DNA of 38,669 bases from Prosthecobacter sp. (GTDB taxonomy: Bacteria > Verrucomicrobiota > Verrucomicrobiia > Verrucomicrobiales > Verrucomicrobiaceae). Positions within the stretch are counted from its first letter, which is position 1; each line of letters starts with the position of its first letter. Position numbers and translations under genes: made by a program. Under the pieces are notes generated by a model, which saw nothing but the letters and a program-made list of their open reading frames with translations, searched no databases and had not been told where the DNA came from. Below are positions 25,350 to 37,944 of the stretch, in pieces. The stretch spans positions 1 to 38,669 of the forward strand of contig JAUREI010000015.1 of NCBI GenBank assembly GCA_030827515.1, in the 5' to 3' direction.

Positions 25350-25439
25350 TGGCGGAAGGGGTGGGATTCGAACCCACGGTGAGGTTGCCCCCACGTCTGA
25401 TTTCGAGTCAGATACTTTAGACCACTCAGCCACCCTTCC
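25350..25439 (-). tRNA. tRNA-Ser (anticodon CGA)
   Basis: The 90-nt tRNA is on the minus strand with CCA encoded at 25352-25350. The acceptor stem GGAAGGG pairs with CCCTTCC and the discriminator base is G. The anticodon stem is TCTGA/TCAGA with loop CTCGAAA, giving CGA, which reads UCG serine codons. The long variable arm (GTGGGGG...CCTCAC) is typical of tRNA-Ser, and the T-arm contains GGTTCGAATCC. Confidence 0.97.
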
Positions 25440-25520: not shown

Positions 25521-25546
25521 GATGCGGTCAGTGCCCGCATCTGCAG
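25521..25546 (-). repeat. REP-like hairpin element, single copy
   Basis: On the minus strand the tag GCAG at 25544-25541 is followed by arm ATGCGG, loop GCACTGA and arm CCGCAT. The same order with GTAG-ACGCGG-GCAATGA-CCGCGT occurs at 36866-36888. Over 26 aligned bases, 21 are identical, and the second stem pair changes from C-G to T-A together. It lies 15 bp beyond the yaeQ stop, in non-coding DNA between tRNA-Ser and yaeQ. Confidence 0.6.
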
Positions 25547-25561: not shown

Positions 25562-26116
25562 TCACCCCTCGTTCAATCGGACCGGGGTCAGTTCCACGCT
25601 GACCTCGCCCTCACCGATCCAGAGCCCGCCATCCTGGAGGGTGACTTGCAAGTTCATCGAGCGTTGGGCCAGCTCACCCAGTGCCTGAACCTGATCGGCG
25701 GGGAACTGCCAGACTTCCAGGTTGGGGAGTCGGCCGAGCCGACCCGCCACCGAGGCCCACCAGGCCGGGGCGGTGGTGGCATAGGCGTAAACCGTCACCC
25801 GGCGCGCACGGGCGCATGCACGCGTGAGGCGTTTTTCCTCGGGTTGGCCGAGCTCGATCCAGTGCAGCAGCAGACCCGTCAGGTCGCGGCGGCTCAGGGC
25901 CGGCGCATCTGCCTCCCAGAGATCCTTGTCGAACTCCAGCGCACCGTCACTGGGATCGGCCGGGGCGTTCAGCACGAAGGCGAGCAGTCGGACCATCATC
26001 CGCTCCTCGGTCTCCGACGGGTGTCGCGCCAGGGTCAGCGTGTGATCGCTGTACTGGTTGCGGTCGAGGTCGGAAAACGACACAGCGGCGCGATGGATGG
26101 TTGCCTTGAGGGCCAT
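25562..26116 (-). CDS. YaeQ family protein
   Basis: A 184-residue soluble protein that matches the YaeQ pattern over its whole length: MALKATIHRAAVSFSDLDRN, LTLARHPSETEERMMVRLLAF, ALEFDKDLWEADAPALSRRD, GLLLHWIELGQPEEKRLTRA and WWASVAGRLGRLPNLEVWQF. YaeQ has a PD-(D/E)XK nuclease-like fold. The E...D-x-x-W-x-x-D-x-P-x-L and ELGQP-x-E-K segments carry the conserved residues. Its biological role is not settled. The start at 26116 gives family length. It diverges from the leuA leader region. Confidence 0.9.
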   Translation of the reverse strand: MALKATIHRAAVSFSDLDRNQYSDHTLTLARHPSETEERMMVRLLAFVLNAPADPSDGALEFDKDLWEADAPALSRRDLTGLLLHWIELGQPEEKRLTRACARARRVTVYAYATTAPAWWASVAGRLGRLPNLEVWQFPADQVQALGELAQRSMNLQVTLQDGGLWIGEGEVSVELTPVRLNEG

Positions 26117-26200
26117 GCCCGCTTCTACGCCGCGGCCGGTGTCCGGGCAAGGCACAAAAAAGTCCGTGCGCGGCCGGCTCGGAAGGTTTATTCATGGGAC

Positions 26201-34259: not shown

Positions 34260-36278
34260 ATGATCCGACCGCTCGCGCTCCTGCTCGCCACCGCATCCTA
34301 CGTCCTGGCCGACGGCCCCAAGGACAACCTCGCCGACAACGTCCGGCCCATCCCGCCGCCCGGCATCGAGGTGCCTGAGGCGGAAGCCACGGCGCTCCAG
34401 GCGGAACTTGCCAGCCTGCGTGCCGCCATCGACGAGGCTGCCAAGGCGCAGGCCAAAAATCCGCGCCTCGCCGACCTGCTGCCCGACGTGGAAATCCACC
34501 ACAAGGCGGTCGACTGGGCCCTGCGCTACGGCGAGGTCCACAAGGCCGGCGAACTGAAGGCAGCCCGAGAAGTGCTTGCCGAGGGCCTCGAGCGCGCCGC
34601 CCAACTCAAGGAGGGTCGCGCACCCTGGACTACCCAGAAGGGCCTCGTGGTTCGCGGTTACCGCTCGAAGATTGACGGCTCGGTGCAGCCCTACGGCATG
34701 GTCGTGCCAGAGAGCTACAGCGGCGCGCCCGCCCGCCTCGATGTCTGGTGCCACGGCCGCGGAGAAACACTCAGCGAACTGGCCTTCCTCGACCAGCGCC
34801 GCAAGCAGGCCGGTCAGATCGCACCCGCCGGCGCCCTCGTCCTGCACCCTTATGGCCGCTACTGCTGCGCCAACAAGCTAGCCGGCGAAATCGATCTCCT
34901 TGAAGCCCTCGACCATGCCGCCAAGTTTTACGCCATCGATCAGGATCGCGTGGTGATGCGCGGCTTCAGCATGGGCGGTGCCGCCGCCTGGCAGTTCGCC
35001 GTCCACTACGCCGACCGCTGGTGCGCCGCCAACCCCGGCGCCGGCTTCTCGGAGACCCCGGAGTTTCTCAATGTCTTCCAGACCGAGGACGTGTCCTCCG
35101 TGCCCGGGTTCCAGCAGACGCTCTGGAAGTGGTACAACGCCACCGACAGCGCCCTGAACCTCTTCCACTGCCCGACGGTCGCCTACAGCGGCGAGATCGA
35201 CCGCCAGAAGCAGGCGGCCGACATCATGGAAAAGCACCTGCGCGCGGAGGGCATCGACCTGGTTCATGTCATCGGTCCGCAGACCGCCCACAAGATCCAC
35301 CCAGACTCGCTTGTGGAGATCGAGCGCCGCCTCGCCGAGATCACCGCCGTCGGCCGCGACCGCACGCCCCGTGAAGTCCACTTTGCCACTTGGTTCCTGC
35401 GCTACCACCGCATGCACTGGGTCCAGCTCGACGCCCTCGAGAAGCAGTGGCAGCGCACGCGCGTGCACGCCGAGATCACCGGCCCCGCCGAGGTGACGGT
35501 CAAGACCCAGAACGTCGTCGCACTGACCCTCGACATGGAGCCCGGCCACTGCCCACTGAGCATGCGCACCGCACCGGAGGTCGTCATCGACGGCACCCGC
35601 CTGGATGTCACCCGGCCCAAGTCCGACCGCTCCTGGCGCGTCCATCTGCGCCACAGCAACGGCAAATGGCAGCAGACGCTGCGCGCCCATGAGCCCGACG
35701 TGCTGGCAAAAAAACACGGCCTTTCCGGCCCCATCGATGATGCCTTCCTCGAGAGTTTTCTCTTTGTCCGCCCGACCGGCAAGGCCATGCACGAAAAAAC
35801 CGGCACCTGGGCCGCCGCCGAGCTGGAACGCGCGGTTTTCGAATGGCGCCGCCAGTTCCGCGGCGACGCCCCGGTGAAGGCCGACACCGAGATCGGCGAC
35901 GCCGACATCGCCTCCAGCAACCTCGTGCTCTGGGGCGACCCCCAGAGCAATGCCGTGCTGAAGAAGATCGTTGCCAAGCTGCCGATTGAGTGGACGTCGG
36001 AAAAGCTGGTCGCCAACGGCAAGACCTACGACGCCGCCAGCCATGCGCCCGTGCTGGTCTTCCCCAACCCGCTCAATCCGGAGAAGTATGTCGTGATCAA
36101 CAGTTCCTTCACCTACCGCGAGTATGACTACCTGAACAATGCCCGCCAGGTGCCCAAGCTGCCGGACTGGGCGGTGATCGACCTGGCACAGCCAAGGACC
36201 AGCCAGGCCCCCGGCGGCATTGCCGACGCCGGCTTCTTCGACGAAGCCTGGTCGTGGCGGAAGGACAAGGGCCGCTGA
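34260..36278 (+). CDS. Secreted prolyl-oligopeptidase/esterase-like alpha/beta hydrolase
   Basis: A 672-residue exported protein: signal peptide MIRPLALLLATASYVLADG. An N-terminal helical region (about 35-120) is followed by a hydrolase domain with the oxyanion-type strand LDVWCHGRGE and the nucleophile elbow MRGFSMGGAAAW. A later His lies in VIGPQTAHKIHPDS and an acidic residue in YSGEIDRQKQA. A C-terminal half (~390-672) has beta-rich blocks (VHAEITGPAEVTVK) and ends FDEAWSWRK. This is the pattern of large secreted serine peptidases or esterases seen in Verrucomicrobiota. The substrate is unknown. The gene diverges from the oxidase operon and stands 53 bp before the peroxiredoxin gene, which may be cotranscribed. 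Confidence 0.8.
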   Translation: MIRPLALLLATASYVLADGPKDNLADNVRPIPPPGIEVPEAEATALQAELASLRAAIDEAAKAQAKNPRLADLLPDVEIHHKAVDWALRYGEVHKAGELKAAREVLAEGLERAAQLKEGRAPWTTQKGLVVRGYRSKIDGSVQPYGMVVPESYSGAPARLDVWCHGRGETLSELAFLDQRRKQAGQIAPAGALVLHPYGRYCCANKLAGEIDLLEALDHAAKFYAIDQDRVVMRGFSMGGAAAWQFAVHYADRWCAANPGAGFSETPEFLNVFQTEDVSSVPGFQQTLWKWYNATDSALNLFHCPTVAYSGEIDRQKQAADIMEKHLRAEGIDLVHVIGPQTAHKIHPDSLVEIERRLAEITAVGRDRTPREVHFATWFLRYHRMHWVQLDALEKQWQRTRVHAEITGPAEVTVKTQNVVALTLDMEPGHCPLSMRTAPEVVIDGTRLDVTRPKSDRSWRVHLRHSNGKWQQTLRAHEPDVLAKKHGLSGPIDDAFLESFLFVRPTGKAMHEKTGTWAAAELERAVFEWRRQFRGDAPVKADTEIGDADIASSNLVLWGDPQSNAVLKKIVAKLPIEWTSEKLVANGKTYDAASHAPVLVFPNPLNPEKYVVINSSFTYREYDYLNNARQVPKLPDWAVIDLAQPRTSQAPGGIADAGFFDEAWSWRKDKGR

Positions 36279-36331
36279 ACGGCCACCATCCAAGCGGCAT
36301 CGCGCCGCGTATCCCGAAAGTGCGCCGTTCC

Positions 36332-36841
36332 ATGCCCCTGCTTGCCGCCTTCTTTTCCAGTCTCTTCGGCGCCGCCCAGGCGGGTCCCGGAGAGAGGGTC
36401 GATCGTCCGGCACCGGAGGTCACCGGGCTCAACCAGGACGGCCGGGAGGTGCGTTTCGCCGAAGTGTATGCCAGGGGACCGACGGTGGTGTTTTTCTATC
36501 CCAAGGCCAACACTCCCGGCTGCACGGCCCAGGCCTGCTCGCTGCGGGACGCCTTTGCCGAACTCCAAAAGCAGGGCGTGCAGGTGCTGGGGGTCTCGAC
36601 CGACGGCACCGCCGCCCAGCAGAAGTTCAAGACTCAGCACCGCCTGCCCTACGACCTCATTGCCGATCCCGACGGCAAGATCCTCGCCGCCTTTGGCGTC
36701 GGCAAGGTGCTTGGTTTGCTTCCCTTCGCCTCCCGCCAATGTTTCCTGATCAAGAGCGGCCGCGTCGTCTGGCATGACGCCAGCGCCTCGACTGACACCC
36801 AGGCCGATGACATCCGGCGGGTGCTGATCGAGGGGCAGTGA
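36332..36841 (+). CDS. Peroxiredoxin, PrxQ/BCP type, with signal peptide
   Basis: A 169-residue thiol peroxidase. The active motif is FYPKANTPGCTAQACSLRD: Cys64 is the peroxidatic and Cys69 the resolving residue, five positions later as in PrxQ/BCP. Around it lie VVFFYPKA, LGVSTDGTAAQQKF and LIADPDGKILAAFGV, typical thioredoxin-fold blocks. The first 18 residues (MPLLAAFFSSLFGAAQAG) form a signal peptide, unusual for BCP but known in secreted PrxQ proteins, so it would act in the periplasm. The start at 36332 is supported by the signal peptide. A reducing partner is not visible nearby. Confidence 0.88.
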   Translation: MPLLAAFFSSLFGAAQAGPGERVDRPAPEVTGLNQDGREVRFAEVYARGPTVVFFYPKANTPGCTAQACSLRDAFAELQKQGVQVLGVSTDGTAAQQKFKTQHRLPYDLIADPDGKILAAFGVGKVLGLLPFASRQCFLIKSGRVVWHDASASTDTQADDIRRVLIEGQ

Positions 36842-36863
36842 TCCCTGCGCGTCGATCAGCCTT

Positions 36864-36923
36864 CTGTAGACGCGGGCAATGACCGCGTGGTTCCCTGTGG
36901 GTCAATGCCCCACACTACAACAG
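36864..36923. repeat. BIME-like pair of opposed REP hairpins
   Basis: GTAG (36866-36869) is followed by a 6-bp stem hairpin ACGCGG-GCAATGA-CCGCGT (36870-36888). After 7 bp a second hairpin TGTGGG-TCAATGC-CCCACA (36896-36914) is followed by CTAC (36915-36918), which is GTAG on the other strand. Read on its own strand, the second unit is GTAG-TGTGGG-GCATTGA-CCCACA, so both have GCAWTGA loops. Outer arms CTGTAG and CTACAACAG nearly close the structure. This is the two-inverted-unit (BIME) arrangement of REP elements. It lies between the peroxiredoxin and TIM-barrel genes. Confidence 0.65.
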
Positions 36924-36926
36924 CCA

Positions 36927-36955
36927 ATCCCTGCGGGCCGATGCACCTCACTTAC
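36927..36955 (-). repeat. Degenerate third REP-like unit
   Basis: On the minus strand GTAAGTGAGGTGCATC followed by GGCCCGCAGGGAT aligns with the second unit (GTAGTGTGGGGCATTG then ACCCACAGGGAA), with about one gap and several substitutions. The stem is decayed. A weaker CCCTGCGCGTCGATC remnant at 36843-36857 may be a further copy. Confidence 0.35.
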
Positions 36956-37026
36956 CCTCACAAAAGGCTGTTCAGGATTCGCGTCACCTGCTAGGCATGC
37001 AGGCTCCAACGCGTATTTTCCCCTCC

Positions 37027-37944
37027 ATGAATCGCCGCCATTTCCTCGCCAGCAGCCTCGGTTTCGCCGCCGCCTCCCCCCTTGCCGCCATCGGCCCGAT
37101 TCAGCGTGCCGGCAAAAGCCGCATGCAGCTCGGCATCGCCGCCTACAGTTTCCGTGACTTCTTCCAGTGGAGCCGGGGCAAGGAGCAGAAGGTCGAGGGA
37201 CGCAAGCCCTGGAGCATCCTCGATTTCATCGACTGGTGCGCCGACCACAATGTGCCGGGTGCCGAGGTGACCAGCTATTTCTTCCCGCCCGATGTCGACG
37301 AGGCCTTTCTGCTTGAGGTGCGCCGCCATGCCTACCTGCGTGGTGTCCAACTGGCCGGCACTGCTGTCGGCAACAATTTCGCCCTGCCCAAGGGCCCTGA
37401 ACTCGACGCGCAGATCGCCGACGTGAAGAAGTGGATCGATCACGCCGCCGTGATGGGGGCGCCACACATCCGCGTCTTTGCCGGCCCCGCGTCGAAAAAG
37501 CTGTCCATCGAGGAAGCCGTCGCCAACTGCACGGCCGCCTATCAGGAATGCCTGGATCATGCCGGCAAGAAGGGCGTCTTCCTCGGCCTGGAAAACCATG
37601 GCGGCATCGTCGCCGAACCGGAGAATTTGGTGAAGATGGTCCGCGCCGCCAACAGCCCCTGGGCCGGCATCAATTTCGACAGCGGGAACTTCCACACCGA
37701 GGATCCCTATGGTGACCTCGCCAAAATCGCCCCCTACGCGATCAATGTGCAACTGAAGATGGTCATGCGGGCCAAGGGGGTCGAGCGCAACGATCCCGGT
37801 GAACCGACCGACATCCCCCGCGTGCTGAAGATCCTGCGCGAAGCGAATTACCAGGGATGGTTCACCCTCGAGTTCGAGGAGAAGAAGGATCCGTTCACCA
37901 CGATTCCCGGCATTCTTGAAACGCTGCGCCCGCTGCTGGCCTGA
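37027..37944 (+). CDS. Tat-exported sugar phosphate isomerase/epimerase-like TIM-barrel protein
   Basis: A 305-residue protein with a twin-arginine type start (MNRRHFLASSLGFAAASPLAA), so it is probably exported folded. The rest is an AP-endonuclease-type TIM barrel: LGIAAYSFRDFF, GAEVTSYFFP, PHIRVFAGPA, GVFLGLENHGGI, GINFDSGNF and TLEFEEKKDP. ENHG, with Glu and His, and the DSGNF and LEFE segments carry the metal-binding residues of xylose-isomerase-like proteins. Members act on sugars or inositols; the substrate is not known. The start at 37027 fits the Tat motif; an ATG at 36997 adds ten residues. A ThuA-like gene follows after 14 bp, a common pairing in Verrucomicrobiota and Planctomycetes. 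Confidence 0.85.
   Translation: MNRRHFLASSLGFAAASPLAAIGPIQRAGKSRMQLGIAAYSFRDFFQWSRGKEQKVEGRKPWSILDFIDWCADHNVPGAEVTSYFFPPDVDEAFLLEVRRHAYLRGVQLAGTAVGNNFALPKGPELDAQIADVKKWIDHAAVMGAPHIRVFAGPASKKLSIEEAVANCTAAYQECLDHAGKKGVFLGLENHGGIVAEPENLVKMVRAANSPWAGINFDSGNFHTEDPYGDLAKIAPYAINVQLKMVMRAKGVERNDPGEPTDIPRVLKILREANYQGWFTLEFEEKKDPFTTIPGILETLRPLLA

Follow-up and report, generated by a model that had tools for sequence, protein, structure and literature searches.

A GTAG-tagged family of inverted REP hairpins in a Prosthecobacter genome, with no matching transposase found beside its units

The window, i.e., the whole stretch of 38,669 nucleotides that was analysed, carries short tagged hairpins at two sites between genes. 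At the first, an inverted pair of hairpins and a degenerate further copy lie between a peroxiredoxin gene and a gene for a xylose-isomerase-like protein; at the second, a single hairpin is located between yaeQ and a tRNA gene, the latter being the only match of an Rfam search of the window at gathering thresholds. The features are as follows:

25353-25439, minus strand: tRNA gene (RF00005, 62 bits), flanking the single unit on the side opposite yaeQ
25522-25544, minus strand: single REP unit with GCAG tag, stem ATGCGG/CCGCAT and loop GCACTGA
25562-26155, minus strand: YaeQ gene (PF07152, E 1.8e-65)
36254-36841, plus strand: AhpC/TSA peroxiredoxin gene (PF00578, E 2.6e-30), upstream of the inverted pair
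36866-36888, plus strand: REP unit of the first subtype with GTAG tag, stem ACGCGG/CCGCGT (6 bp) and loop GCAATGA
36889-36895, no strand: spacer GGTTCCC (7 nt), separating the two heads of the inverted pair
36896-36918, minus strand: REP unit of the second subtype with GTAG tag, stem TGTGGG/CCCACA and loop GCATTGA
36930-36954, minus strand: degenerate REP unit of the second subtype, 20/25 to the subtype consensus, tag lost
36997-37944, plus strand: gene for a xylose-isomerase-like TIM barrel protein (PF01261, E 1.3e-30), downstream of the inverted pair

The inverted pair of GTAG-tagged hairpins, which the initial annotation had placed between two genes at 36864-36923, can be read directly from the sequence and starts 24 bp after the peroxiredoxin stop codon. 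The first unit is preceded by CT at 36864-36865 and reads CT-GTAG-ACGCGG-GCAATGA-CCGCGT in full. Its inverted partner, read on the minus strand from 36918 to 36896, is TT-GTAG-TGTGGG-GCATTGA-CCCACA with TT in front of the tag, and the two GTAG tags are thus found at the outer ends of the pair (36866-36918). With a covariance model of the family the two units scored 38.2 bits (E 8.9e-6) and 34.5 bits (E 8.1e-5), respectively. Folded as DNA, the segment 36862-36922 was better than its shuffled versions (z -3.11; 1 of 200 shuffles equally good).

A third unit had been proposed at 25521-25546 on the minus strand, matching 36864-36889 at 21 of 26 positions when aligned by eye and with the second stem pair changed from C-G to T-A. 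This unit is real (33.1 bits, E 1.9e-4), but it departs from the description given for the family in having the tag GCAG rather than GTAG and the loop GCACTGA rather than GCAWTGA; on the minus strand (25544-25522) it reads CT-GCAG-ATGCGG-GCACTGA-CCGCAT. It sits 17 bp beyond the yaeQ stop codon on the strand shared with yaeQ. Also the suspected degenerate fourth copy held up: the 20/25 agreement of 36930-36954 exceeded the best score in each of ten order-1 Markov windows of equal length (only 17-18/25), and 0 of 400 random 82-mers reached it.

The hairpin is abundant in the genome to which the window belongs (4.05 Mb, 315 contigs). The exact pattern GYAGNNNNGGGCANTGACC, which fixes the inner two stem pairs and leaves the outer four free, matched 25 times compared to a single match of the reversed control, and a covariance model built from the 25 exact rows returned 57 matches at E<=10 and 37 at E<=0.01. 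To assess the stem, the 18 distinct rows among the exact matches were compared with 500 shuffles and with slid structures. Stem cells were paired in 95.4% compared to 67.9% in shuffles, 26 cells were changed on both sides compared to 8.0, and the covariation score was 0.636 compared to 0.145, none of these values being reached by any of the 500 shuffles; slid structures scored 0.009-0.206. Two further measures were unremarkable, as both-sided change in four of the six stem pairs was reached by 306 of 500 shuffles and the ten further stem pair types by 28 of 500. The stem, which the initial annotation had described as covarying, is kept by compensating changes.

For a wider view of the family, a motif script listed 50 rows corresponding to 49 distinct units in 25 stretches of the genome; the remaining row, an overlapping palindromic duplicate (C115), was dropped. 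A unit truncated where contig C176 ends and eight places of weak covariance-model matches are outside this list. The tags were GTAG in 33 units, GCAG in eight and GTGG in three; 276 of 294 stem cells were Watson-Crick pairs and a further five G-U, the stems occurring in 27 combinations; within the loop, G.A was present at positions 1 and 7 in 45 and C-G at positions 2 and 6 in 47 of the 49 units, figures which are partly built in, since tag, loop and stem pairing all enter the selecting score. The covariation test on the exact rows is freer of this selection bias. The most common unit is GTAGGCGGGGGCAGTGACCCCGC. CT directly precedes the tag in 38 of the 49 units. A profile of the flanks, which lie outside the unit selection, was based on 45 units (four with duplicated flanks were dropped). 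Information was low farther upstream, rose steeply at the two bases before the tag, the first being C in 37 units and the second T in 42, and was high through the tag; the unit has a sharp boundary at CT-GTAG. Four single units were found in duplicated intergenic segments that flank a short coding stretch (L163; G000 C81:19500-26000).

The units are placed between genes and are frequently paired. As counted with a simple, purpose-written and uncalibrated codon-usage gene caller, which called the individual unit-bearing stretches 62.5-99.9% coding, 46 of the 49 distinct units (47 of the 50 rows) were intergenic, the exceptions being located on contigs C203, C257 and C293. Among 16 close neighbour pairs, 11 were arranged head to head with GTAG outside, three head to tail and two tail to tail. 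Head-to-head spacers ranged from 6 to 12 nt, nine of the 11 measuring 6-8 nt, and several were GGWWCC-like (GGTTCC or GGATCC); spacers akin to the GGTTCCC of the window were GGATTCC, GGAACC, GGATCC and GTAACC. In four rows (C59; C205 at 15301; C307 at 5163; C313) the four tag bases overlap the end of a gene that lies upstream in the same orientation, and the TAG of the tag would be its stop codon. According to the sections of Di Nocera et al. (PMC3733652) used here, the termini of REPs often supply a stop codon.

Many copies, intergenic bias, compensating stem changes and inverted pairs support the reading of the hairpins as a REP/BIME family; neither of the findings that the initial annotation named as refuting it, a lack of further copies or copies inside genes without a conserved structure, was obtained. 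Tagged REPs with GTAG or CGTC are described in more than 80 species of eight phyla, among them the verrucomicrobium Opitutus terrae with the families GTAG-17, -19 and -20 (PMC3733652, in part), and the family of the window therefore belongs to a known kind of REP. In the account of the GTAG superfamily that Di Nocera et al. gave in 2013 (PMC3733652), the foot is GTAG, GYAG or GTGG, most stems measure 6-9 bp and have compensating variants, dimers are head to head, placement is intergenic and TAG stop codons are supplied; all of these features are shared. The suggestion that the element is undocumented in this lineage can thus hold only below the phylum level. Compared with the GTAG families of O. 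terrae, by description rather than by consensus sequences, the family has its own stem and loop (G.A mismatch, C-ANY-G), and no description of it emerged from the literature consulted. Within the published GTAG superfamily, the hairpins make up a REP/BIME family whose exact form appears novel in the Verrucomicrobiaceae; a second novel point is that a matching transposase appears to be missing next to the units.

Another close system is the REP/BIME system of E. coli with its transposase TnpA-REP (PDB 4er8), which shares the GTAG foot, an adjacent CT, a mismatch within the stem and subtypes in inverted pairs (PMC8266576, in the parts consulted). The same parts state that TnpA-REP recognises GTAG and the hairpin mismatch in single-stranded REPs, needs GTAG and cleaves at CT located 5' or 3' of the REP. 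The present family differs in its shorter unit, in a single G.A mismatch where E. coli has an AA-GC bulge, and in that no RAYT gene was found beside the units. Each 23-nt unit is made up of a GTAG foot and, directly behind it, a 6-bp stem that is topped by the G.A mismatch, a single C-G pair and a triloop ANY. By analogy, the family with its tag, CT and conserved mismatch fits the TnpA-REP scheme. Under this scheme, a RAYT, i.e., a HUH transposase of the Y1 type, would recognise the single-stranded unit by its foot and its irregular hairpin, and would cleave at the CT just before GTAG; such cleavage may have allowed single units and inverted doublets to spread into intergenic sites. The CT in front of 38 of the 49 tags is suggestive of a cleavage mark. 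Neither empty sites nor movement of the units were observed.

A RAYT flanked by the same units, as envisaged in the initial annotation, was not found in the window's genome, where hairpins of another family surround the only RAYT-type gene. This gene, detected both by NF047646 and by a profile built on nine proteins of congeners, encodes a 294-aa protein of the HLPHW type on contig C146 (C146:1557-2159; L215, G000). It lies within GTGG-C-TTCGGC hairpins, unlike those of the window, and no unit of the window family was located on the part of the contig that was examined. These hairpins represent a second REP system of the genome, with GTGGCTTCGGCTTTAGCCGAA around the gene and nine copies genome-wide with at most three mismatches. 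The only other Y1 gene found is IS200-like and located on contig C77 (C77:17915-18256; L026, G000; PF01797); a search with Pfam PF01797 alone found this gene and missed that on C146. The unit script detected no unit of the window family in 11 kb around the C77 gene, and a looser search one match with three mismatches. As judged by eye against congener proteins, the C77 protein seems to have a histidine at the position of the catalytic tyrosine. In addition, neither the examined flanking sequences of the 25 exact matches nor 20 longer stretches of the genome contained a RAYT homologue. The assembly is a draft of 315 contigs estimated as 96% complete, and contig C176 ends inside a unit, so that a gene may be concealed where the assembly breaks at repeats. 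Given that the search yielded no cognate RAYT, either the gene was lost and the copies have outlived it as relics, or the draft assembly lacks it.

In a congener, G029, related units do occur around a RAYT gene. Here, a 185-aa REP-associated transposase is encoded among inverted GTAG hairpins (C5:42592-43002; L107, L161), one on the 3' side and five on the 5' side of the gene. The protein scored 111 bits with NCBIfam REP_Tyr_transpos (NF047646; cut-off 80) and matches E. coli TnpA-REP 4er8 with E 6e-9. Two units picked by the unit script, GTAGGTCGGGTCTGTGACCCGGC and GTAGGCCGGGTCTGTGACCCGGG, each match the unit GTAGGCCGGGGCAGTGACCCGGC (L133) of another congener, G016, at 20 of 23 positions by eye, while GTAGGTCGGGTCTGTGACCCGGC matches the most common unit of the window's genome at only 18 of 23, also by eye. 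This REPtron-like locus thus resembles the family of the window in its GTAG hairpins, in its inverted doublets and in the two hairpins close to the G016 unit. It differs in that the loop TCTGTGA, in place of GCANTGA, forms a fully paired stem and in that it belongs to another genome of the same genus; the other G029 hairpins, several with GCCACC-like stems, are less like the window family.

G016, assembled in six contigs, is richer in units than the genome of the window, with 41 covariance-model matches at E<=0.01 compared to 37. Many of its units have the stem ATCGGG/CCCGGT, and several are paired with GTAG-CACCGG-CCAGTGG-CCGGTG. In the stretches that hold 48 of its 62 matches no RAYT-profile match was detected, and of ten known Y1/RAYT places the one closest to a unit, at a distance of 1.8 kb, holds an IS200-like Y...Q-type gene. 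With NF047646, 11 matches were counted in G016, three places being among the matches listed, and the RAYT test in this genome is incomplete to that extent. In one region of G016 (L143; C1:1737600-1757000), GTAG unit groups recur at distances of 75-76 bp, and in the stretch inspected another hairpin with a GTAG tag lies in between. One genus offers a natural comparison between two genomes rich in units, with no RAYT found beside them, and another with a RAYT among related units. The GTAG REPs gain a Verrucomicrobiaceae family, and with this comparison one can ask by what means a REP population survives the loss of its transposase and whether the G.A mismatch conserved in the hairpin is a recognition mark.

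Taken together, the inverted pair is best explained as a REP doublet (BIME/REPIN) of the GTAG superfamily that was spread by a RAYT since lost or missing from the assembly, a reading to which we assign a probability of roughly 0.85; we infer that a RAYT of the G029 type made the copies. Against it stands that no RAYT was found beside the family in the window's genome, nor in the G016 stretches searched. In the sections of PMC3733652 considered here, REPtrons are stated to be absent from some species that hold REPs. A further proposal, which we regard as rather unlikely, is that a population of about 50 units persists without its cognate RAYT and that its palindromes are kept paired by a non-cognate transposase or by selection acting on the hairpin. 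Mobilisation in trans by the HLPHW-type protein of C146, which would normally serve GTGG-C-TTCGGC hairpins, appears improbable: no other RAYT-type gene was found in the assembly and the tags overlap, GTGG occurring in three of the 49 units, but its hairpins differ from the units in foot, spacer, stem and loop, and the parts of PMC6006769 drawn on here tie each published RAYT to its own REP family.

The units might alternatively have been kept, and even spread, mainly for a role in RNA, as 3'-end hairpins that protect or end upstream transcripts. Both window sites indeed lie just beyond the 3' end of a gene, at the distances given above, a position often taken by REPs according to the sections of PMC3733652 cited. 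However, a scan of 36700-37100 yielded neither promoters nor terminators, the RNA fold of 36842-36960 was no better than shuffles (z -0.62), while the DNA fold of the shorter 36862-36922 was better, and an RNA role alone does not explain dispersed copies bounded at CT-GTAG. As the main cause this role is therefore highly improbable, although a secondary RNA role of the units is possible. Chance palindromes in a GC-rich genome could be invoked because loose motif matches with at most two mismatches are common in the window, amounting to 26; the expected number is 13.6 and 0 of 100 shuffles reached 26. This explanation is refuted by the exact-match counts in the genome (25 compared to one in the reversed control), the stem covariation and the intergenic bias, leaving it a negligible probability.

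In samples that each include the window's genome, matches to the family occurred in 5 of 48 genomes of the genus (E<=0.001), in 6 of 56 relatives (E<=0.01), all of the same genus, and in 11 of 387 genomes of an even phylum sample (E<=3e-4). In the other ten phylum genomes the RAYT profile had no match within 1.5 kb on either side (less at contig ends) of their 20 matches. A strict scan for the inverted pair among genome contigs, which may leave out the window's genome, returned two stretches. One is JABTUN010000004.1 of Verrucomicrobiaceae bacterium H5_VER2, whose unit pair is identical on a G016 contig. The other belongs to the Bacillota MAG WRAY01000026.1, with inverted GTAGGGGCGGGCATTGACCGCCC-like units at L184:4772-4842. 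Finally, TnpA genes of the Y...Q type were observed near GYAG- or ATAG-tagged CCCAGGGC-like hairpins at five loci (L073, L076, L090, L094 and L101), with up to 13 motif matches in one locus.
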